From Halorientalis sp. IM1011 (GTDB taxonomy: Archaea; Halobacteriota; Halobacteria; Halobacteriales; Haloarculaceae): DNA of 64,000 nucleotides. Location: assembly GCF_001989615.1 (NCBI RefSeq), contig NZ_CP019067.1, positions 1,302,001 to 1,366,000 on the forward strand, read 5' to 3'. Below, piece after piece: positions 1 through 16,760 of this stretch; position 1 is the stretch's first letter, and each line of letters starts with the position of its first letter. Position numbers and translations under genes: made by a program. Below the pieces are notes generated by a model, which saw nothing but the letters and a program-made list of their open reading frames with translations, searched no databases and was not told the DNA's origin.

Positions 1-264
1 CTCGATGAACGAATCCTCGAAATCCTCCGGTCTGAAGGCTGGTCCGCACCTGGCTATATCGCCCAGAAAGTCTCCCTGTTCGCCTCCATTGGACGGGTCC
101 GTGAGCGCTGTCAGATGCTCGCAGACGTGGAGCTAGTTGAACCACTGACGGAAGAGAAAGAGCACTACGAGATCACGGGAAAAGGACAGCGGTACTTAGA
201 AGGTGATCTTGACGCTACGAATCTATCTACTCCATCTCCCCAGAAAGCACTTCCTCGTTGGTAG
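1..264 (+). CDS. Winged-helix repressor-like protein, C-terminal part
   Basis: This is the last 87 codons of a gene that begins left of the window. The visible protein starts LDERILEILRSEG and has the compact helix pattern of a winged helix-turn-helix followed by a wing ending in YEITGKGQRYLEGDLDA. That ending is characteristic of the haloarchaeal PhiH1-repressor-like family, small DNA-binding proteins common in viruses and integrated elements. It precedes the 363-3303 operon by about 100 bases on the same strand and could regulate it, which is inference. Base composition is intermediate between the island and the core genome. The family call is fairly safe; the target is unknown. Confidence 0.6.
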   Translation, partial: LDERILEILRSEGWSAPGYIAQKVSLFASIGRVRERCQMLADVELVEPLTEEKEHYEITGKGQRYLEGDLDATNLSTPSPQKALPRW

Positions 265-339
265 TCCTTCCTGAGATAATTTATAACCGGTTTCAGTTCC
301 ACTGAGGATGGCATAATTCTTTAAAGAAGGACACAAGAC

Positions 340-345
340 TTTATA
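340..345 (+). promoter_or_regulatory. TATA box of the 363-3303 operon
   Basis: TTTATA is centred about 21 bases before the ATG at 363, close to the archaeal spacing for a transcript starting at or just after the start codon. No Shine-Dalgarno sequence precedes the ATG. This suggests a leaderless or nearly leaderless mRNA for the three-gene operon. Confidence 0.5.
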
Positions 346-362
346 CCAAGGACATCCAACGC

Positions 363-1586
363 ATGCTCTCTAATACCGTCAAGCGCCATATCTCGCGCAT
401 ATTTGAGCAGGCTTTGAGCGAGAAGAGAAAGCGCTTGTACTTCAATAAGTATCACACGGGTAGGAACATTACTGAGGTATCCTTAGCAGAGGAATTTAAA
501 GGAGAGTTGAAGGAAGAGACAATTGAACAGGCTCAGATAGATCTGAAAGATGCACAACTGATTAAAGTGAACGAAGAGCCAGTTCTGTTCATTGCTCATC
601 GTGACGAAGCCTGGATAGTTGTCCATTCAAGTCGCATAGAGGATGACTCTACACGTAGAAAGCTTGGTGATCTATCAAGTACCAAGGGATGGCTTGTAGA
701 AGCATGGATCCCTGGAGACACTCTGGACGAGATCTATGAAGACTATTCCCCGGATGGCGAGAATGTGAACCTGACAAGGAGCTGGGACCCATATTATCTT
801 TATAAAAGAGAATCGAAGGTCCCCGAAGAATATCAGAAATATTACTCCGAGCACCAGAGAGAGTTCTCGCAACAGAATGTAGAGGTCGAGATCACGACCC
901 CAAAATGGCGGCTCGAAGAGACGTTAGATAACGCTATGACCCCATTCTTGGAAGATAAGTCTGAAACGGAGAGTTCTGAGTTTACGATGCAGACGACTCC
1001 GGAAATGGGTGTTAGCAGCGATGGCGGTAGTGTTTCTGCGACCCAATCATCTGTCAAGGTAAAGGAAAGTGGGTCAGTCACCCACCAGTCCGGAGATATC
1101 GGTGCAACATTTAAGTTAGTCGACGAGACGGCTGAGCGTTCCCAGTGGGTCTATGAATTGTTTGATGAAGTAGCGGCCTCGTATGAATACAAAGACAATG
1201 ATGATGGAAGTTTGTCTTTGACTGGTTACAAGCCACCCCAAATAATCTTATTCGAGATCCCTGTTGCGTTCTCCAGAGAGATTAGTATAAAATTATCTAA
1301 CTTCCTCACAGTTGGTCAGAAAGATGTGGATCTCTTTGGTGTCATTGGTAATAGAACAGGGAAAGAGTTCACTGCCGAAACCCACATTCCGTTCAATGAG
1401 GACGAATATGACATATCCATCACCGGGGCTGAAGATGAGGAGAAGACTGCAGTTTATGTTAGACCAACAGAGGGCAGTAAGGCTGGTCTTGTTTACTTCT
1501 ATCACAAACTTCAGCAAAAATTCAATCCGAATATAGAGGTCGAGAAAGTTGATGAAATGCCGGAATCATTCTCTGAGGAGGAATAA
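363..1586 (+). CDS. Unrecognised protein, first gene of clamp-like operon
   Basis: 407 residues, function not recognised. The N-terminal 60 residues are helical and basic (KRHISRIFEQAL, SEKRKRLYF). A mixed alpha/beta region runs to about 200, followed by a Ser/Thr-rich, probably disordered linker at about 200-250. A second beta-rich domain covers about 250-390. No Walker, nuclease or methyltransferase motif is visible. The two-domain layout with a flexible linker would suit an adaptor that joins two partners, which is inference. It overlaps the next gene by one base (TAATG), so the two are probably translated together. Codon use is AT-rich compared with genes right of 5679, pointing to horizontal acquisition. 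Confidence 0.75.
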   Translation: MLSNTVKRHISRIFEQALSEKRKRLYFNKYHTGRNITEVSLAEEFKGELKEETIEQAQIDLKDAQLIKVNEEPVLFIAHRDEAWIVVHSSRIEDDSTRRKLGDLSSTKGWLVEAWIPGDTLDEIYEDYSPDGENVNLTRSWDPYYLYKRESKVPEEYQKYYSEHQREFSQQNVEVEITTPKWRLEETLDNAMTPFLEDKSETESSEFTMQTTPEMGVSSDGGSVSATQSSVKVKESGSVTHQSGDIGATFKLVDETAERSQWVYELFDEVAASYEYKDNDDGSLSLTGYKPPQIILFEIPVAFSREISIKLSNFLTVGQKDVDLFGVIGNRTGKEFTAETHIPFNEDEYDISITGAEDEEKTAVYVRPTEGSKAGLVYFYHKLQQKFNPNIEVEKVDEMPESFSEEE

Positions 1587-2527
1587 TGTCGGCTGAAAGC
1601 AAACTTACGGATATGCACACTGCCTGCGTAAACAGGTTGGTGGGTGCATATGTTCCGAAGGCGTGTAAGGGATTAAGCCTCCACGACAAGGGATATGACT
1701 GGTACATCGACCCTAAATATGAGACTGAATCTAGTTCTATTGAAGCGGACTTTCTCAGTGTAGGAAGGAAAGATGTGCAACACTTCAAGACTGTAGGTGC
1801 GACATCTAACGCCGGAAGAATAGATAATATTGTATCCAATATAAGCGAAATCGAATCAGATCTTGAGGATATACTTGATTTAAAAGATATATCTTCAGAC
1901 ATGGTTAATAATTTCCTGAAGAAAAAAGGCACTTCTGTGAGCCCAGATGTCCAGGAAGTCGTGGCACTACTACCTTCTACTGCATATGAAGAATATAAGT
2001 CAAAAGTCGACAATTTCTGTGAAGAGAACGACATACAAGCATGGAAAGTCGAGTTAAACGGTAGAAACAAGGTGAAAAAGATCGCGGGAAAGCACAACTT
2101 GCCAGAGGTTGATGAACTGATATCAGGTAGGGGGACCCAGGATGGCATTCAACTATGTGATATTGATAGTAGTTTGTCTCCCGTTGTACGCAACAGTGAT
2201 ATGAGCCTAATCAAGTTCCGTTTTGCGTGTAGGCTAATCACGTATGCTCATGGGGAACAAACTACCCTCATTCCGTATGAGGATATTGACGATATCATGC
2301 TAAATGCGGAACGTCCAATATTGGGCCACCTTTCAGAAGATGAGAGAGATAAATATTGGCAGCAATGTATGCTCACACTTCGAAATACTCTCAATGAAAT
2401 CAAACAGAGCCAAGAAGGTGTCAACGTTTTCGAGTGGGAGAAGCAACGCTTCCTCTATGATAACTCAGCTCGATCAAGTTTGATCGAGGAGATCAGGTCC
2501 GGACTGGATCTTGGAGAGGAAGCATGA
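1586..2527 (+). CDS. Unrecognised protein, second gene of clamp-like operon
   Basis: 313 residues, acidic and largely helical, family not recognised. The first ~70 residues (MSAESKLTDMHTACVNRLVG) contain two cysteines. A helical stretch with possible coiled-coil character covers about 75-150, and a long C-terminal helical part includes KYWQQCMLTLRNTLNEI. No catalytic motif, zinc knuckle or membrane segment is evident. I found no convincing PCNA-interacting (PIP) box. The start is fixed by the TAATG overlap with the gene before it, and the end overlaps the clamp-like gene by four bases (ATGA), so the three products are likely made in a coordinated ratio and may form a complex. Confidence 0.75.
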   Translation: MSAESKLTDMHTACVNRLVGAYVPKACKGLSLHDKGYDWYIDPKYETESSSIEADFLSVGRKDVQHFKTVGATSNAGRIDNIVSNISEIESDLEDILDLKDISSDMVNNFLKKKGTSVSPDVQEVVALLPSTAYEEYKSKVDNFCEENDIQAWKVELNGRNKVKKIAGKHNLPEVDELISGRGTQDGIQLCDIDSSLSPVVRNSDMSLIKFRFACRLITYAHGEQTTLIPYEDIDDIMLNAERPILGHLSEDERDKYWQQCMLTLRNTLNEIKQSQEGVNVFEWEKQRFLYDNSARSSLIEEIRSGLDLGEEA

Positions 2528-3303
2528 AGGCGACGTTAAAAATCAGTCGTTCGCATTTATTACAACTTCTAAGATGCATTGATAGGGTAATAGGAGTTCC
2601 CGATGAAGACACTCATTCAGACGTCAATCTAATAGTCAATGACGAATATATCAAACTCTACTCCTTTCTGAACCCAGTATTCATTTCTCACAAAGTGAAA
2701 GATGGGACTGAAATTTCGGTAGATGTGGAATCAGAAGGGAAGATCGCATTTAATACCGATACACTGTATGATATTGTAAAGAACTCAGAAGAGGGCAGTT
2801 TAGAGATAGTGTTTACTGATGAACAATATCTTATTCAGACACCGGGAGGTGATTCACTTTCTCCAGTGAATTTTGAACTCCCTCGCCACACAGACACTTC
2901 ATTTAAGGAACAGCCTACAGACTTGGGAGAGTTATATTCAATTGAGACTGTGTCTCGAACTGAATTGAAAAGCGCACTGGGAACGATGGATGTGATCGGA
3001 GAATTTGTAAATATCTCAGTGACGGAGGATGGCAACTTTTCCATATCTATGGATAATAAGGTCACAGGAAATGCAGAATTGAAAAAAGAGGGGTGTACGA
3101 CAGACATTTCCAAGATGTCACAGCTCTATATGGTTGGTCCGCTGAAAGAGTTTGTCAGTACAATGACTGACGCTTCTGAGGTTGAGATGCTAGTTAGTGA
3201 CAATAACAATATTTGCCTCAGAGCTTCTGTCGATAATTGGACTGCAGAGCTTCACTTGGGCAAGAAAGCCGGAGATATGTTTGACACTTATTTAGATATA
3301 TAA
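2524..3303 (+). CDS. Divergent PCNA/DnaN-like sliding-clamp homologue
   Basis: 259 residues, close to the ~245-250 of archaeal PCNA. Two similar halves are visible. The first runs: strand MKATLKIS, helix RSHLLQLLRCIDRVIG, strands through YIKLYSFLN, then IAFNTDTLYDIVKNSEEGSL and a final strand pair ending NFELP. The second half repeats the order: helix RTELKSALGTMD, strands FVNISVTEDGNFSISMDN, then LYMVGPLKEFVSTM, VEMLVSDNNN and WTAELHLGKK. This strand-helix-strand order is that of a processivity clamp, with the interdomain connector at about 125-140. The call rests on fold pattern, not on a searched alignment. The haloarchaeal housekeeping PCNA is much more acidic and has a different sequence, so this would be a second, specialised clamp. 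It is the last gene of the operon (ATGA overlap). Confidence 0.55.
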   Translation: MKATLKISRSHLLQLLRCIDRVIGVPDEDTHSDVNLIVNDEYIKLYSFLNPVFISHKVKDGTEISVDVESEGKIAFNTDTLYDIVKNSEEGSLEIVFTDEQYLIQTPGGDSLSPVNFELPRHTDTSFKEQPTDLGELYSIETVSRTELKSALGTMDVIGEFVNISVTEDGNFSISMDNKVTGNAELKKEGCTTDISKMSQLYMVGPLKEFVSTMTDASEVEMLVSDNNNICLRASVDNWTAELHLGKKAGDMFDTYLDI

Positions 3304-3308
3304 TCTTC

Positions 3309-4964
3309 TTATAGGCTCTCTTTTATTTCCTCGACCTTTTCAACGAAGTCGTCGGAATAGTCACCTACGGGTAATGGTTTCCAGATATCAACAATCCTGT
3401 CCTCCAAGAATCTGAAATCATCAAATTCCGAAATATCCCTATCATCCTCGACGATCAGATCACAAACCTCCATTGCCAGTCCATCCAACCCGTGTTCCTC
3501 TACTATGCCTGAGATTCGGCTTGAAGCGGATAATCCGATGTCGTGATTTATCTCGGTATACACGACCAATTCCATGTACCTCCTCAAAAGGTGGTACCGG
3601 TGTGCTTCTAATTCGTTTGAATCTGTACTCCCGATAGCCGATTCCCAACACTCATAGATGTGACCCGGAGGACTTTCTTCAACCTCTAGAGAATTCATGA
3701 TTTCCCCCGTAATCTGCATTAATAAATAGGTACAATCCAATAGCATGAAAACTCCATCATCAGTAGACTTCCAAGACGGCTCTTTTTCTTTTTGGCCAAT
3801 AATCGCTCTCTCTTTGTCCTCTTCTTTTTCACATTTTTCTTCCTCTAAAACCAAGTCATTATGTGTATCTACCATACCCTGAAGACATATCTTATACTTC
3901 TCAGAGAGATTGTTACCAGAGATGTCTAAAACCATATTAGAGAACATTGGTGCGATATTCACGAACAGATCTTTATCTTGTGTTGATTTTGAGAACAAAT
4001 CGCTACAACACTGGATTATTGATTGTTGAGTTTTGTCGGAGTATCCATCTGCTTCCTCAAAGAATGAGAACGCCGTTAAGTATGCCTCTTGATACAACTC
4101 TCTGTTATCGGATTTTAATGACTCAGTCCCTATTCCCGTAATTCCATCACAAACAGAGACCACAGCATCATCGAATCCTTTGCTATCAGCTCGATTAATG
4201 ATTGCCTGGCCAAAATCATAAAAAACGGGCTGGTAGGTCTTTTCCAGATCTAGATCTTGTCCAGCGTCTAATTCTGAAATCAAATCTTTCGGAATTCCAA
4301 ATAGAGCATTCGTTGCAGCAACTGCTGCTCCAAAATCCTCTCTTCGAATAGAATTTCGAGCAAAGTCATAGACGGGTTGCATTGGGTGATCCGATATCTT
4401 CTCAGCCTGCCTCGATTCACTCAGATACTGATTCACATTATATTGACGTCGGTATTGAGATAGCATATTTTCCGGCGAAGTTTGTATCAATATCAGGCGG
4501 ATAAAGGGATAAAGAAGACTGAAGAATACAATACTGAGTCCAGCTAAAATACCACCGATTGTCCAGAAAATCATATGTCCAAGAGTTCCGGAAGAGATAT
4601 TGAGTGCCGCGTAAATTTGAGTGGCCGCAGATAGGATTGCGATATTCGATATAACACAGAAAATTCCGAGACCAAAACTCAACTGCACCACAGGATCATT
4701 AACGAATGTACTGGTGAACTTGGGAGAATACCGTTCACTTGCAATCTGGGTAGAAATGAATAATACAGAGAATACAATTGCAAGGACGGAAGCGACAGCG
4801 GTAGTGAGTGTAGTTAGTAATTGAATTATTATATTATTCGATAGTTCTGGGCCGACAGAAATACTAAATACAGTAGTGGCACCCAGTATGAATAGAGATA
4901 TTAGTATCCATACCCAGTGCGAATTTGCTAATTCCTTATAAGTTTCCCCAACGCTGTCAACCAT
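3309..4964 (-). CDS. DUF2254-like membrane protein with helical cytoplasmic domain
   Basis: 551 residues. Four hydrophobic segments lie in the first ~170 residues (about 17-36, 48-70, 93-118, 130-160). Between the second and third is FSVLFISTQIASERYSPKF followed by FVNDPVVQLSFGLGIF, which matches the core signature of DUF2254 predicted membrane proteins. The remaining ~380 residues are soluble, helical and acidic, with a charged stretch EEEKCEKEEDKER, and are not recognised. A TATAAAT box lies at 4999-5005 on the minus strand, giving a short leader. The gene ends five bases from the clamp-like gene, facing it. Like that operon it is AT-rich, so both probably arrived with the same island. A role as membrane effector of the operon is speculation. 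Confidence 0.7.
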   Translation of the reverse strand: MVDSVGETYKELANSHWVWILISLFILGATTVFSISVGPELSNNIIIQLLTTLTTAVASVLAIVFSVLFISTQIASERYSPKFTSTFVNDPVVQLSFGLGIFCVISNIAILSAATQIYAALNISSGTLGHMIFWTIGGILAGLSIVFFSLLYPFIRLILIQTSPENMLSQYRRQYNVNQYLSESRQAEKISDHPMQPVYDFARNSIRREDFGAAVAATNALFGIPKDLISELDAGQDLDLEKTYQPVFYDFGQAIINRADSKGFDDAVVSVCDGITGIGTESLKSDNRELYQEAYLTAFSFFEEADGYSDKTQQSIIQCCSDLFSKSTQDKDLFVNIAPMFSNMVLDISGNNLSEKYKICLQGMVDTHNDLVLEEEKCEKEEDKERAIIGQKEKEPSWKSTDDGVFMLLDCTYLLMQITGEIMNSLEVEESPPGHIYECWESAIGSTDSNELEAHRYHLLRRYMELVVYTEINHDIGLSASSRISGIVEEHGLDGLAMEVCDLIVEDDRDISEFDDFRFLEDRIVDIWKPLPVGDYSDDFVEKVEEIKESL

Positions 4965-5026
4965 TTATCAATATACCTATCACACTATGTATAATCAGTA
5001 TAAATATGCTTTTGGGATTTATTTCT

Positions 5027-5462
5027 TCATATCATCTCAAAGTGGTCGTACTTCCGTTCTGTCGTGAGAATCGTCGCGTGCCGTAGCCGATTCCGTACGT
5101 CGTAGAGACTGTTTCCCTCTTCGGCTCGAAGCATCCGCCACGCGACCGAGTGCCGGAGCGTGTGGGCGCTTACGTCGTTGGGCACGCCACGCCCCGTAGG
5201 CGTAGGGTTCGACGCCCGCGCGCTCTGTCAGCCGCTTGCCCACGTCGTTGATGCCCTTCCCAGTCATCCGGTCGGCCTTCCCCGAGAGAACCAACGCAGA
5301 ACTGCCGTCGTTGCGAGCCGAGAGGGACGCCCGGAGCGTCCGAAGGTCACCGCTCTCGTCCAGCTCGACGGTCACCACGCTCGGAGTGTCGTCGTTGCGG
5401 GAGCCCCTCTGAACCTGGGCAGGAATCCACACCTCCGCGGCGTCGAGAACGGGCAGTGGCAC
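5027..5462 (-). pseudogene. Truncated, frameshifted XerC/D-type integrase
   Basis: The minus strand encodes the C-terminal half of a haloarchaeal tyrosine recombinase. One frame reads WIPAQVQRG and later KADRMTGKGINDVGKRL to GVEPYAYG. Near 5190 the homology moves to another frame, which continues GVPNDVSAHTLRHSVAWRM, NSLYDVRNRLRHATILTT and ERKYDHFEMI before a TGA at 5027-5029. The second frame supplies the catalytic HxxR box (HTLRH), the conserved second His (LRHATI) and the nucleophile Tyr (KYDHF). The N-terminal core-binding domain and first catalytic Arg are absent. This is therefore a broken integrase lying 217 bases from the 3' end of tRNA-Ala, the expected position for the integrase of a tRNA-targeted element. 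Confidence 0.85.
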
Positions 5463-10554: not shown

Positions 10555-12741
10555 TTAGAAGTAGTTGATCGCTTCCGGAAGCTCAGTCTTCATGCCCTTC
10601 CGCTCCCGAATTTCGGTGATCTGGTCGGGCTGGAGGTTGTCGGCCATGACCTGGAAGCCGGCGTTCTCGGTGTTCCAGGAGGCACGGCCCTCGGTAGCCG
10701 AGCGGATGTCGGAGGAGAAGCCGATCATCTCCTCGACGGGCGCGACGCCCTCGACGACCATCAGGTCGCCTTCCTGGTACATGTCGTCGACGCGGCCACG
10801 GCGGCCCTGGATCTCGCCGGAGGCGGCACCCATGTGGTCGTTTGGCACGTCGATCCGGACTTCCTGGATCGGCTCCAGCAGGCGGATCTCGGCGTCGATC
10901 AGGGCGTTGTGGACGGCCTGGCGAACGGCCGGGATGACCTGTGCCGGACCGCGGTGGATGGCGTCCTCGTGGAGGCGAGCGTCGTGCAGGCGGATGAGTG
11001 CGCCCTGCACGGGTTCGGCGGCCAGCGGCCCGTCGTCGAGTGCCTCTTCGAGGCCCTCGATGACGAGTTCCATCGTCTCGTTGAGGTGCTGGATCCCCTT
11101 CGTGTCGTCGATGAGGATGTTGGTGTTGTGGATCGTCTCGACTTCCTGGGCGGCGTCCTTGTCGAGACCGGCCTCCATCAGGGCCTCACGCCGTTCGAGT
11201 TCGGGCATGTCCATCGAGGCCTCGCCCATCTTGATCGTCTCGACGACATCCTCCTCGAGGGGTTCGATGGAGATGTAGAACCGGTTGTGGCGGTTCGGGG
11301 AGATGCCCTCGACCTCCCGGGACTCCTGCTGGGGCGCTTCGCGGAAGACGACGATCGGTTCACCGGTGTGGACCGGGATCCCCTGGTTGCGCTCGATGCG
11401 CTGGGTGATGACTTCGAGGTGGAGTTCACCCTGCCCGGAGATCAGGTGTTCGCCGGTGTCCTCGTTGATCTCGATCTGGATCGTCGGGTCCTCCTTGGAG
11501 ACCTGCTGGAGCGTCTCGATGAGCTTGGGCAGGTCGTCCATGTTCTGTGCCTCGACGGACTTCGTGATCACCGGCTCGGAGATGTGTTCGATGGACTCGA
11601 ACGGCGTCATCTCGGCCGAGGAGACCGTGGAGCCGGCGATGGCGTCCTTGAGGCCGGTGACGGCGGCGATGTTCCCGGCGGGAACGCGGTCGACCTCCTC
11701 GCGCTCGCCGCCCATGTAGATGCCGACGCTCTGGATGCGGTTCTTGCCGGCGGTGCCGGAGACGTAGAGTTCCTGACCCTTCTCAAGCGTGCCGGAGAAG
11801 ACACGACCGGCGGCGATCTCGCCCGCGTGGGGGTCGACGCCGATGTCGGTGACCATCAGGACGACATCGCCGTTCTCGTCGACGAGTTCCATCTGTTCGG
11901 CCAGTTCGGAGTCTGCGTCGCCGCGCCAGATGCGCGGGATCCGCATCGGCTGGGCGTCGATGGGGTTGGGGAAGTGCTCACAGACCATGTCGAGCACAAC
12001 GTCGGCCAGGGGCGTCCGCTCGTGGAGTTCCTGGCGCTTGTCGGCCCGTTCGAGGTCGATGATGTCGCCGAAGTCCATGCCGGTACGCTGCATCGACGGC
12101 ATGGAGACCCCCCACTTGTAGAGCGCAGAACCGAAGCCAACAGTGCCGTCCTCGACGGAGACGGTCCAGTCCTCGATGTCGTCCATCTCCTCGGTCATGC
12201 CGCGGATGAGGTCGTTCACGTCGCGGATGACCGCGGTCAGCCGTTCCTGCATCTCCTGGGGACCTTCTTCGAGTTCGGAGATGAGGCGGTCGACCTTGTT
12301 GATGAAGAGGGCGGGCTTGACGCCTTCGCGCAGTGCCTGCCGGAGGACCGTCTCGGTCTGGGGCATGGCACCCTCGACGGCGTCGACGACCACCAAGGCC
12401 CCGTCGACGGCGCGCATCGCACGGGTCACGTCGCCCCCGAAGTCGACGTGGCCGGGCGTGTCGATGAGGTTGATGAGGTGGTTGGTGTCCTCGTACTCGT
12501 GGGTCATCGAGACGTTCGCCGCGTCGATGGTGATCCCGCGTTCCTGCTCGTCCTCCTCGGTGTCCATCGCGAGCTGTTCACCGGCGGTCTCGTCGGAGAT
12601 CATCCCCGCACCGGCCAGCAGGTTGTCCGTCAGTGTCGTCTTGCCGTGATCGACGTGGGCGGCGATGGCGATGTTCCGGATGTTCTCCGGCTCGTCCATC
12701 AGCCGTTCGCACTCCTGTACGATCTTTTTGCGTCGGCCCAT
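10555..12741 (-). CDS. fusA: Translation elongation factor EF-2
   Basis: 728 residues from [16 protein letters not shown]-2 is the GTPase that translocates tRNA and mRNA on the ribosome. The P-loop AHVDHGKTT is at 28-36, followed by [12 protein letters not shown] (G3) and NKVDR (G4). Domain IV contains DAIHRGPAQ, whose His596 is the expected diphthamide site modified by DPH enzymes. Upstream in-frame codons would extend the protein by 45 residues of no family similarity, so the ATG at 12741 is the better start. The gene before it in the usual archaeal order, rps7, is 8 kb away here because the surface-protein cluster lies between them. Confidence 0.97.
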
Positions 12742-14704: not shown

Positions 14705-14774
14705 TCCAGCGGAACTGTACCCTGGACCCGCTTTTGTCTTTCGGCAAGTTCACACACGAAAACGAAGACAGCTA

Positions 14775-16760
14775 TCAGAGCGTGTTACAGAGCGGGTTGT
14801 ACCACGGACAGGAGGCGGAGACGGTGACGGTGTCGGTCGCGGTCGCACCGTCGTCGTCAGTCACCGTCAGCGTCACCGTGTACTCGCCCTCCGAATCGAA
14901 GGCGTGATCGACCTGCTGACCGGTCGCTTCCACCGACCCGTCACCGTCGAAGTCCCACTCGTAGGACGCGATCGACCCGTCCGGATCGCTCGATCCAGAC
15001 CCGTCGAAGGTGACGGACTCGCCGGGCTCGGGTGACGTGTTACTGACCGACGCGCTCGCGGTCGGTGCGTCGTTCGTATCGACCGAGATCGTGACGTTCG
15101 TCGAGTCGGTCACGCCGTCGTCGTCGGTCACCGTCAGCGTCACCGTATACTCGCCGGGCGAACTGTACGCGTGCGTGGTGAACGCCCCGGTTGCGGTCGC
15201 GCCGTCCCCGAACTCCCACTCGATCGACTCGATCGACCCGTCCGGATCGGTCGAGCCCGATCCGTCGAACGAGATCGACTCGCCGACCTCGACGAGTGTC
15301 GACTCGACTGCGGCGTCGGCAGTCGGCGGCTCGTTGTCGACGACCGTCGTCGTCACGGTGTCGGTCGCGGTGTCGCCGTCGTCGGCGGTCACCGTTAGCG
15401 TCGCCGTGTACTCGCCGGCCGTGTCGTACGTGTGAGAGACCTGCTGGCCCGTGGCGTTCGTCCCGTCACCGAAGTCCCACTCGTAGGACGTGATCGTACC
15501 GTTACTGGCGACCGAGTTCGAGCCGTCGAACGTGACGGTATCACCGGCCATCACCTCGCTCGGACTCCCCGACGCACTGGCGATCAGCGAGTCGCTGCCC
15601 TGGACGGTGACGGTGACCGAGTTCGAGGACGTCGCGCCGTCGTCGTCGGTCACCGAAAGCGTCGCCGCGTAATTTCCGTCCTCACTGTAGGTGTGGGTGA
15701 CCTGCTGGCCCGTGGCGGTCGAGCCGTCCCCGAAGTCCCACTCGTAGGATTCGATCGTCCCGTCCGGGTCGCTCGAACCCGATCCGTCGAACGTGACCGA
15801 CTGCCCCGGCTCGACCGTCGTCGAGGACGCAGTCGGACTCGACATCGGTGGATCGTTGCCCTCGACGACGATCGTCACCGAATCGATCGTCGACGTGCCG
15901 TTGTTGTCAGTCACCGTCAGCCGCGCCGTGTAGGCTCCCGAGTCGTCGTACGTGTGGGTGACCTGCTGGCCCGTGGCGGTCGAGCCGTCACCGAAGTCCC
16001 ACTCGTAAGATTCGATCGACCCGTCCGGATCGATCGATCCCGACCCGTTGAAGGTGACCGTATCGCCGGCACTGACCGTCGTCGAACTGGCATCGGCGTC
16101 GGCCGTCGGTGCAGTATTGGCGCTCCCGCCGGAACTCGTATCGGCACTACACGGCCCCCACTCGAACGTATCGTCGTTATCACTGTCGTAACAGGCGAAG
16201 AATCTGAGGTCCGTGATGGAGATGCTGTCGGCATAGAGGTAATGTGCCCGGATCCGGACGCCGTCACGGTCGGATCCCTGGAGCGTGACCGGTCCGTCCG
16301 ACCGGATCCGCCAGCGGCCGCGAGCGTCCGAGGCGTTCGTGTCGTTGGTCAGAAACTCGTTGAACTCCGCCTGATCGGCACCGAGCGCGGAGGAACGCAC
16401 CAGCACGTCCCCGCCGTCGGTCCCGGCCGGTGACATGAACTTGACCCGTACCGTCCCCGACATCGGGAACGCCGAAAACGACCCCAAATCGAGGTCCTTG
16501 GTCAGCCCGAACTGCTGAATGTCGGTGTTCGAGAGCTGCACGACCGTCTGCGGGAAGTTCTCCTCGGAGTCCGTGTTCCCGACGCCCGGATACAACACCA
16601 TATCGTCCGCGGTGATCTCCGACGCCGTTATGTTGAACCCGCCGACGCCGGCCAGCGGTAGCGCGTACGCGACGCCGGTCGACATTACTAACAGCCCGAT
16701 CAGTGCCCATATCGCAACGGCGGTTCCAGCCCCCCGCGCAATGCGTGTCCGGTTGTACAT
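14775..16760 (-). CDS. Secreted DUF6230-like protein fused to five PKD domains
   Basis: 661 residues from MYNRTRIARGAG. A Sec-type signal or anchor segment (AIWALIGLLVMSTGVAYAL) leads into a ~200-residue DUF6230-like domain (GVGGFNITASEITADDMVLY) that ends with an acidic, Ca-binding-like DSDNDDTFEWGPC. Five PKD domains follow (residues ~215-645), each with the YEWDFGDGS and THTY-type motifs, and a short Cys-containing tail. PKD domains are extracellular beta-sandwiches in surface adhesins and enzymes. The start is chosen by match to the paralogue at 18232 (MYDKSILAK) and leaves a ~100-base leader after the conserved promoter at 16861-16889. DUF6230 is otherwise best known from actinobacteria. 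Confidence 0.85.
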   Translation of the reverse strand: MYNRTRIARGAGTAVAIWALIGLLVMSTGVAYALPLAGVGGFNITASEITADDMVLYPGVGNTDSEENFPQTVVQLSNTDIQQFGLTKDLDLGSFSAFPMSGTVRVKFMSPAGTDGGDVLVRSSALGADQAEFNEFLTNDTNASDARGRWRIRSDGPVTLQGSDRDGVRIRAHYLYADSISITDLRFFACYDSDNDDTFEWGPCSADTSSGGSANTAPTADADASSTTVSAGDTVTFNGSGSIDPDGSIESYEWDFGDGSTATGQQVTHTYDDSGAYTARLTVTDNNGTSTIDSVTIVVEGNDPPMSSPTASSTTVEPGQSVTFDGSGSSDPDGTIESYEWDFGDGSTATGQQVTHTYSEDGNYAATLSVTDDDGATSSNSVTVTVQGSDSLIASASGSPSEVMAGDTVTFDGSNSVASNGTITSYEWDFGDGTNATGQQVSHTYDTAGEYTATLTVTADDGDTATDTVTTTVVDNEPPTADAAVESTLVEVGESISFDGSGSTDPDGSIESIEWEFGDGATATGAFTTHAYSSPGEYTVTLTVTDDDGVTDSTNVTISVDTNDAPTASASVSNTSPEPGESVTFDGSGSSDPDGSIASYEWDFDGDGSVEATGQQVDHAFDSEGEYTVTLTVTDDDGATATDTVTVSASCPWYNPLCNTL

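Follow-up and report, generated by a model that had tools for sequence, protein, structure and literature searches.

Gene layout and conservation of the A-B-C cassette

Three overlapping genes, here called A, B and C, lie near the left end of a 64,000-nucleotide stretch of the 3.78-Mb genome of the haloarchaeon Halorientalis sp. IM1011 (G000:C1:1302001-1366000; hereafter the window, to whose numbering plain positions refer). Gene A (363-1586, plus strand) encodes a protein of 407 amino acids (aa) that belongs to no known family, gene B (1586-2527, plus strand) a 313-aa protein with a predicted PD-(D/E)XK nuclease fold and a C-terminal winged helix, and gene C (2524-3303, plus strand) a 259-aa sliding-clamp homologue with the predicted fold of PCNA. 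Gene D (3309-4964, minus strand), which encodes a 551-aa DUF2254 membrane protein and candidate effector, converges on C at a distance of 5 bases. The stop codon of A (TAA, 1584-1586) and the ATG of B at 1586 have one base in common (TAATG), and the stop codon of B (TGA, 2525-2527) overlaps the ATG of C at 2524 by 4 bases (ATGA). A preliminary description of this DNA had reported three genes overlapping by 1 and 4 bases, and its coordinates and overlaps proved exact. The three genes are probably co-transcribed. A sigma-70 promoter scan of the window was set aside as not meaningful for archaea.

Searching a collection of 84,980 species with A identified relatives in five other haloarchaea, namely Natrialba hulunbeirensis (locus L016), Natronomonas gomsonensis (L009), Halohasta litorea (L018), Natronomonas sp. 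CBA1123 (L010) and Halobacteriales archaeon QS_1_69_70 (L008). A, B and C occur in the same order in all five, with 21-32% identity to the window proteins; the 1-base A/B overlap is found in three of these relatives and the 4-base B/C overlap in two. Since full-length relatives are present in five species, in the same order and in several cases with the same short overlaps, A, B and C are real genes, and a reading of them as chance open reading frames was ruled out by the conservation of all three proteins. Among 148 genomes of the family searched with C, matches came from that of the window and from three more. When 394 genomes of the order were searched with a profile of A and, independently, with one of C, both matched only G000 (the window genome), G127, G133 and G336, a coincidence with a probability of about 1e-9 if the two genes were distributed independently. 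The order of the genes and the joint presence of A and C are conserved outside this genome, which the preliminary description had named beforehand as a check on its claim. The conserved unit also takes in the convergent membrane gene (five of the six loci) and an upstream helix-turn-helix (HTH) gene (three loci). Six cassettes are available in all, and six-taxon trees are weakly resolved; the concatenated tree groups Natronomonas sp. CBA1123 with Natrialba and not with N. gomsonensis (0.97), which fits horizontal transfer of the unit.

Predicted folds of C and B and sequence features of A

The N-terminal half of C scores 25.3 bits against the Pfam DNA_pol3_beta N domain (PF00712, cut-off 24.4), while the NCBIfam dnaN and PCNA models match C with E-values of 2e-4 to 7e-4, far under the model cut-offs. 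A profile of the six C proteins was compared with all PDB sequences, and 17 of 17 matches were sliding clamps (best E-value 2.4e-4). The AlphaFold2 model built from the six-sequence alignment (pLDDT 79.6, pTM 0.81) contains four beta-alpha-beta-beta-beta units, the pattern of PCNA, and the best 50 PDB matches listed for it by Foldseek were all PCNAs, aligned over the full length (E-value 3e-13, probability 1.00, TM 0.76), with the Sulfolobus PCNA1-2-3 heterotrimer among the best of them. Sequence profiles and modelling together strongly support a full two-domain PCNA/sliding-clamp fold for C. This agrees with the preliminary description, which had recognised a clamp in the third product and proposed structure prediction for 2524-3303 as a check.

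C resembles the archaeal and eukaryotic PCNAs (PF00705/PF02747; PDB 5hac, 2nti and others) in its two domains, its four beta-alpha-beta-beta-beta units, its length of about 250 aa and its full-length fold match (TM 0.70-0.81), and the last residues of several C proteins form an L-A-x-R-like motif, in alignment with L-A-P-R at the PCNA terminus. Unlike PCNA, none of the six C proteins matches PF00705 or PF02747 (PCNA_N, PCNA_C) in Pfam, a joint alignment gives 10-15% identity between C and the PCNAs of haloarchaea and haloviruses, and in the genomes searched C is encoded only in the A-B-C cassette and not with replication genes. The bacterial DnaN beta clamp (PF00712) shares with C the N-terminal domain that exceeds the Pfam cut-off; however, DnaN has three domains and about 370 aa, whereas C has two domains and is closer to PCNA by fold.

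The window genome also encodes a separate canonical PCNA (G000:C1:1936662), to which C is 14% identical in the joint alignment, so that the third product is indeed as far from the normal haloarchaeal PCNA as had been claimed. A profile-profile comparison of C with haloarchaeal PCNA (hhalign) was weak (E-value 0.0055, listed probability 6.6). The low identity and the weak profile-profile score indicate that C is a remote branch rather than a recent copy. A recent duplicate of the host PCNA and a captured viral PCNA were both considered and ruled out by the identity of 10-15%. Several other haloarchaeal genomes (G078, G079, G080 and G152) contain two or three PF00705 PCNA homologues, which are probably viral or plasmid copies.

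By analogy of fold, C may form a ring that encircles DNA and is loaded by RFC or another clamp loader. In a viral structure library, C matched viral PCNAs and DnaNs and also the poxvirus late transcription factor 1 (VLTF-1), showing that the clamp fold can be reused and is by itself no proof of a DNA clamp. C might then function as a protein scaffold that does not encircle DNA, possibly like VLTF-1, and its predicted lining helices, which are not consistently basic, would suit such a function. We consider this doubtful, given that the best matches of C are without exception genuine PCNAs, aligned along the entire chain, and that the fold of its partner B is of a DNA-binding type. Another possibility is a toxin-like or regulatory module directed against the host clamp, in which C would mix into or imitate host PCNA under the control of A and B. 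Clamp heteromers exist, as the Sulfolobus PCNA1-2-3 match illustrates, and the operon overlaps suggest balanced expression; nevertheless, similarity between C and host PCNA is not obvious beyond the fold and the terminal motif, and toxin-antitoxin pairs usually comprise two genes and have no need of a membrane gene, which makes this explanation very improbable.

No family was recognised for B by sequence in Pfam, NCBIfam, other libraries or a PDB profile search. Its AlphaFold2 model from the six sequences (pLDDT 83.9, pTM 0.83) confidently places a PD-(D/E)XK nuclease fold, with the core alpha-beta-beta-beta-alpha-beta arrangement, at about residues 10-180 and a C-terminal winged helix at about residues 206-306. 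The earlier statement that the two partners of the clamp have no recognisable family thus holds for both A and B by sequence, but not for B at the level of the predicted fold. The best PDB matches of B by Foldseek were XisH (E-value 4.9e-4), the FdxN-element excision factor (E-value 8.3e-4) and AF2093, the first two being the only ones to pass an E-value of 0.001; further matches included AF1548, the R2 retrotransposon endonuclease, Can2 and N.BspD6I, and we take all of these to be PD-(D/E)XK proteins. The C-terminal third, which has winged-helix topology, weakly matches Cdt1 and TAF1 domains. XisH and the FdxN-element factor (PDB 2inb, 2okf) share the fold of the N-terminal domain of B, but their identity to B is 12-13%, they have no counterpart of its winged helix, and the D-x-K motif is missing in five of the six B proteins. 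One further match of B in a phylum-wide search (G641, E-value 4e-4) has three internal stops and was judged to be due to chance.

A column-by-column alignment of the six B proteins revealed four invariant residues, D42, D55, D63 and Q65. Window B does not have the catalytic D ... (D/E)-x-K signature of active PD-(D/E)XK nucleases: the position of the catalytic triplet is occupied by K-T-V, and in four other copies by E-I-V, G-V-C, T-V-E and S-I-I. D/E-x-K is retained only by the B of L008, as D-V-K together with an upstream D. Because the catalytic residues are lost in five of the six copies, B probably serves to sense or hold DNA, not to cut it, and judging from these residues most copies are unlikely to be ordinary nucleases. 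The same data bear on a restriction-like reading in which C would hold B on foreign DNA and B would cleave it, with no membrane effector involved. Such a clamp-guided cutter would fit the nuclease fold of B and, in particular, L008, which keeps the catalytic residues and has no membrane gene. It is nonetheless unlikely, as five of the six B proteins, including that of the window with its K-x-V, lack the catalytic lysine position even though the four residues named above are invariant, and as it would leave the convergent membrane gene with no role.

A is the best conserved of the three proteins (31-49% identity among members, and 31-32% between the window protein and its five relatives) and contains the invariant motifs W-D-P-Y and L-S-N-x-L-T-V-G-Q-x-D. 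Profile searches of Pfam, NCBIfam, PHROGs, PADLOC and PDB returned nothing consistent for A. A likeness to SpbK (E-value 0.003), seen in one of the six members, was not supported by the other five, and profile comparisons of A with C and with B were negative, so that a reading of A as a hidden copy of the clamp or of the nuclease-fold protein was rejected.

The convergent membrane gene and the mobile island

D matches DUF2254 (PF10011) with 38.2 bits (cut-off 28.8), and its hydropathy predicts four to five transmembrane helices, all within residues 20-160. A membrane gene converges on C in five of the six loci, as DUF2254 in the window and as another family, here called D', in L009, L010, L016 and L018, and in each of these five it overlaps C or ends at most 14 bases from the C stop codon. 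The D' proteins are 35-44% identical to one another and are each predicted to have between one and four transmembrane helices close to the N-terminal end. Homology of D and D' was considered and rejected, the two having no detectable similarity. That one membrane family has taken the place of another in this slot suggests that D and D' are functionally linked to A-B-C, possibly as an exchangeable effector. Close relatives of D' are rare outside the cassette, with two weak partial matches in 196 genomes. Two PADLOC matches of D' were found in one member each, a weak one to PDC-M22B in L010 (13914-14609 of that locus, minus strand; E-value 2.6e-5) and one to DruC in L009 (E-value 0.001); they may reflect sequence composition or else a distant relationship with known effectors. 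In topology, and in topology only, D and D' are like Pdp-Sau, a staphylococcal membrane-effector abortive infection system, with a membrane-anchored N-terminal part and a cytoplasmic C terminus. For Pdp-Sau, a halt of phage DNA replication and a change in membrane permeability have been reported (PMC10127798).

The cassette lies in a low-GC mobile island that covers positions 1-5120 and extends about 179 bases beyond the left end of the window, as delimited by a GC profile and by comparison of the flanks with four congeners (G076, G079, G081 and G083). The GC fraction is 0.39-0.48 in the island and 0.61-0.72 outside, and the cassette is absent from the site in all four of these congeners, in line with the integrated element of the preliminary description. 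Upstream of A, the island carries an HTH regulator gene of the winged-helix, PhiH1-repressor-like type (1-264, plus strand), whose start falls 26 bases beyond the left end of the window (about G000:C1:1301974); it shares 54% identity with the HTH gene that immediately precedes A in L009 and also has a match in L010. The right island edge is occupied by a frameshifted tyrosine-recombinase remnant (5017-5460, minus strand), recognised by translation of the frames; an intact relative with 85% identical DNA is present in G081 (L120:7857-8495).

The contents of the site differ among the congeners. In G079 the left flank (up to window position -179) and the right flank (from 5121) are 33 bases apart and the island is missing, which may be the original empty site or the result of a deletion. 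About 1.2 kb is present at the site in G083; in G081 it holds other cargo, flanked by an HTH gene and an integrase. G076 has 4.6 kb of other genes there, including a match to the PADLOC candidate defence protein PDC-M30A (E-value 1.6e-35); the corresponding segment (L119:882-4812) encodes a Gp37/Gp68-family-like protein and a TcmP-like protein, the latter being the PDC-M30A match. The site, between a cytochrome P450 gene and tRNA-Ala, looks like a hot spot for defence cargo. PDC-M30 and the window cassette have the chromosomal site in common but their proteins are unrelated, so that all the comparison shows is the ability of the site to take up candidate defence cargo. A direct att repeat marking integration at tRNA-Ala was considered, but no repeat fits; the only exact repeat of at least 14 bases (5172/5890) does not enclose the island.

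In the two Natronomonas species the integrase and HTH flanks are 88% identical in DNA (L009:4459-6785 and 11553-12227 versus L010:8497-10823 and 14746-15420), whereas the cassette DNA cannot be aligned except for 235 bases and the proteins are 33-48% identical. Conserved flanks around a divergent cassette indicate that it is the cassette, and not the site, that is exchanged or diverges fast. The cassette is mobile.

Its position beside tyrosine recombinases and repressor-like HTH genes would also be expected of a replication, stability or copy-control module, in which C would serve as the processivity clamp of the element itself or compete with the host clamp while the element replicates. Clamps are typical replication genes, and extra PCNAs are known in haloviruses and some haloarchaea (PMC3404096). 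However, no polymerase, initiator, helicase or clamp loader was seen in any of the six cassettes, which extends to all of them the earlier remark that the clamp has neither polymerase nor loader beside it. The haloviral PCNAs are normal family members (33-63% identity to host PCNA, among the matches listed), in contrast to C with its far lower identity to them, and searches of viral-contig, phage and plasmid collections found no cassette proteins (B was not among the phage queries). An element-replication role is therefore less likely, and we regard it as rather unlikely overall. In QS_1_69_70, and in no other locus, A is immediately preceded by a small gene (L008:6604-6948) for a putative OB-fold (SSB-like) protein.

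Candidate defence role of the cassette

Clamps are hubs of replication and repair. The cassette is a rare, patchy, mobile, low-GC and fast-diverging cargo, its site in a congener holds a candidate defence gene, and restriction genes are found nearby in relatives, a combination that points to conflict with viruses or plasmids. In Halohasta litorea, a McrB-like AAA (AAA_5) gene of 1188 aa and a McrC-like gene of 449 aa with a weak DUF2357 match (L018:4679-9587) adjoin A on its upstream side in divergent orientation, and a type IV HNH restriction gene lies near the cassette in N. gomsonensis (L009). Among the functions offered in the preliminary description, defence gains circumstantial support from the candidate defence gene at the site and from the swappable membrane gene, while replacement of the host clamp appears unlikely, there being no polymerase, loader or PIP-box partner. 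We give about even weight to the proposal that A-B-C, usually together with the convergent membrane protein, is a new mobile antiviral system in which a clamp complex recognises replicating foreign DNA and acts through a membrane effector.

We hypothesize that C forms or joins a ring on DNA, or docks on the replication clamp of the invader, and that an A-B-C complex would thereby recognise replicating foreign DNA. B would supply the DNA-binding PD-(D/E)XK fold and winged helix, and would sense or hold DNA, probably with no cutting. The signal would then pass through the membrane protein, DUF2254 here and D' elsewhere, and the infected cell would be stopped. Viral PCNA offers a possible trigger, and 22 records of haloviruses with their own PCNA were found. 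The specific version, in which a dedicated sliding-clamp sensor, the mostly dead PD-(D/E)XK/winged-helix protein B and A recognise viral forks or viral PCNA and signal to interchangeable membrane effectors, is more tentative, and we hold it to be possible rather than probable. Complex formation, DNA loading, sensing, the effector role and defence itself are all inferred from gene context and predicted folds.

Several observations weigh against the proposed defence system. The predicted lining helices of C show no consistent positive charge, although those of haloarchaeal PCNA show none either, and neither A nor B contains a canonical PIP-box that would connect it directly to PCNA. Neither D nor D' is present in L008, and DUF2254 relatives occur in 12 other genomes of the family for which the search with C gave no cassette. 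Defence genes near the cassettes are few and differ from locus to locus, and no match of A, B, C or D' in PADLOC (2023) identifies a known defence system: B matched PtuA in one member (E-value 0.013), and C, searched with the window member alone, had no match.

The combination of A, B and C is undescribed in the libraries searched (including PADLOC-DB of 2023) and in the open-access literature, although a later catalogue could hold it. Nor, within the limits of these searches, did PADLOC or the open-access literature yield any system of defence or conflict that is equipped with a dedicated clamp. With four genes in about 5 kb, and with genetically tractable haloarchaea and sequenced PCNA-encoding viruses available, the cassette is directly testable. 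If it does not act in defence, C still represents a branch of clamps with no link to any polymerase in the loci seen. If it is a defence system, and if the proposed mechanism is true, it would mean that cells use their own clamp to recognise an invader by its replication fork.

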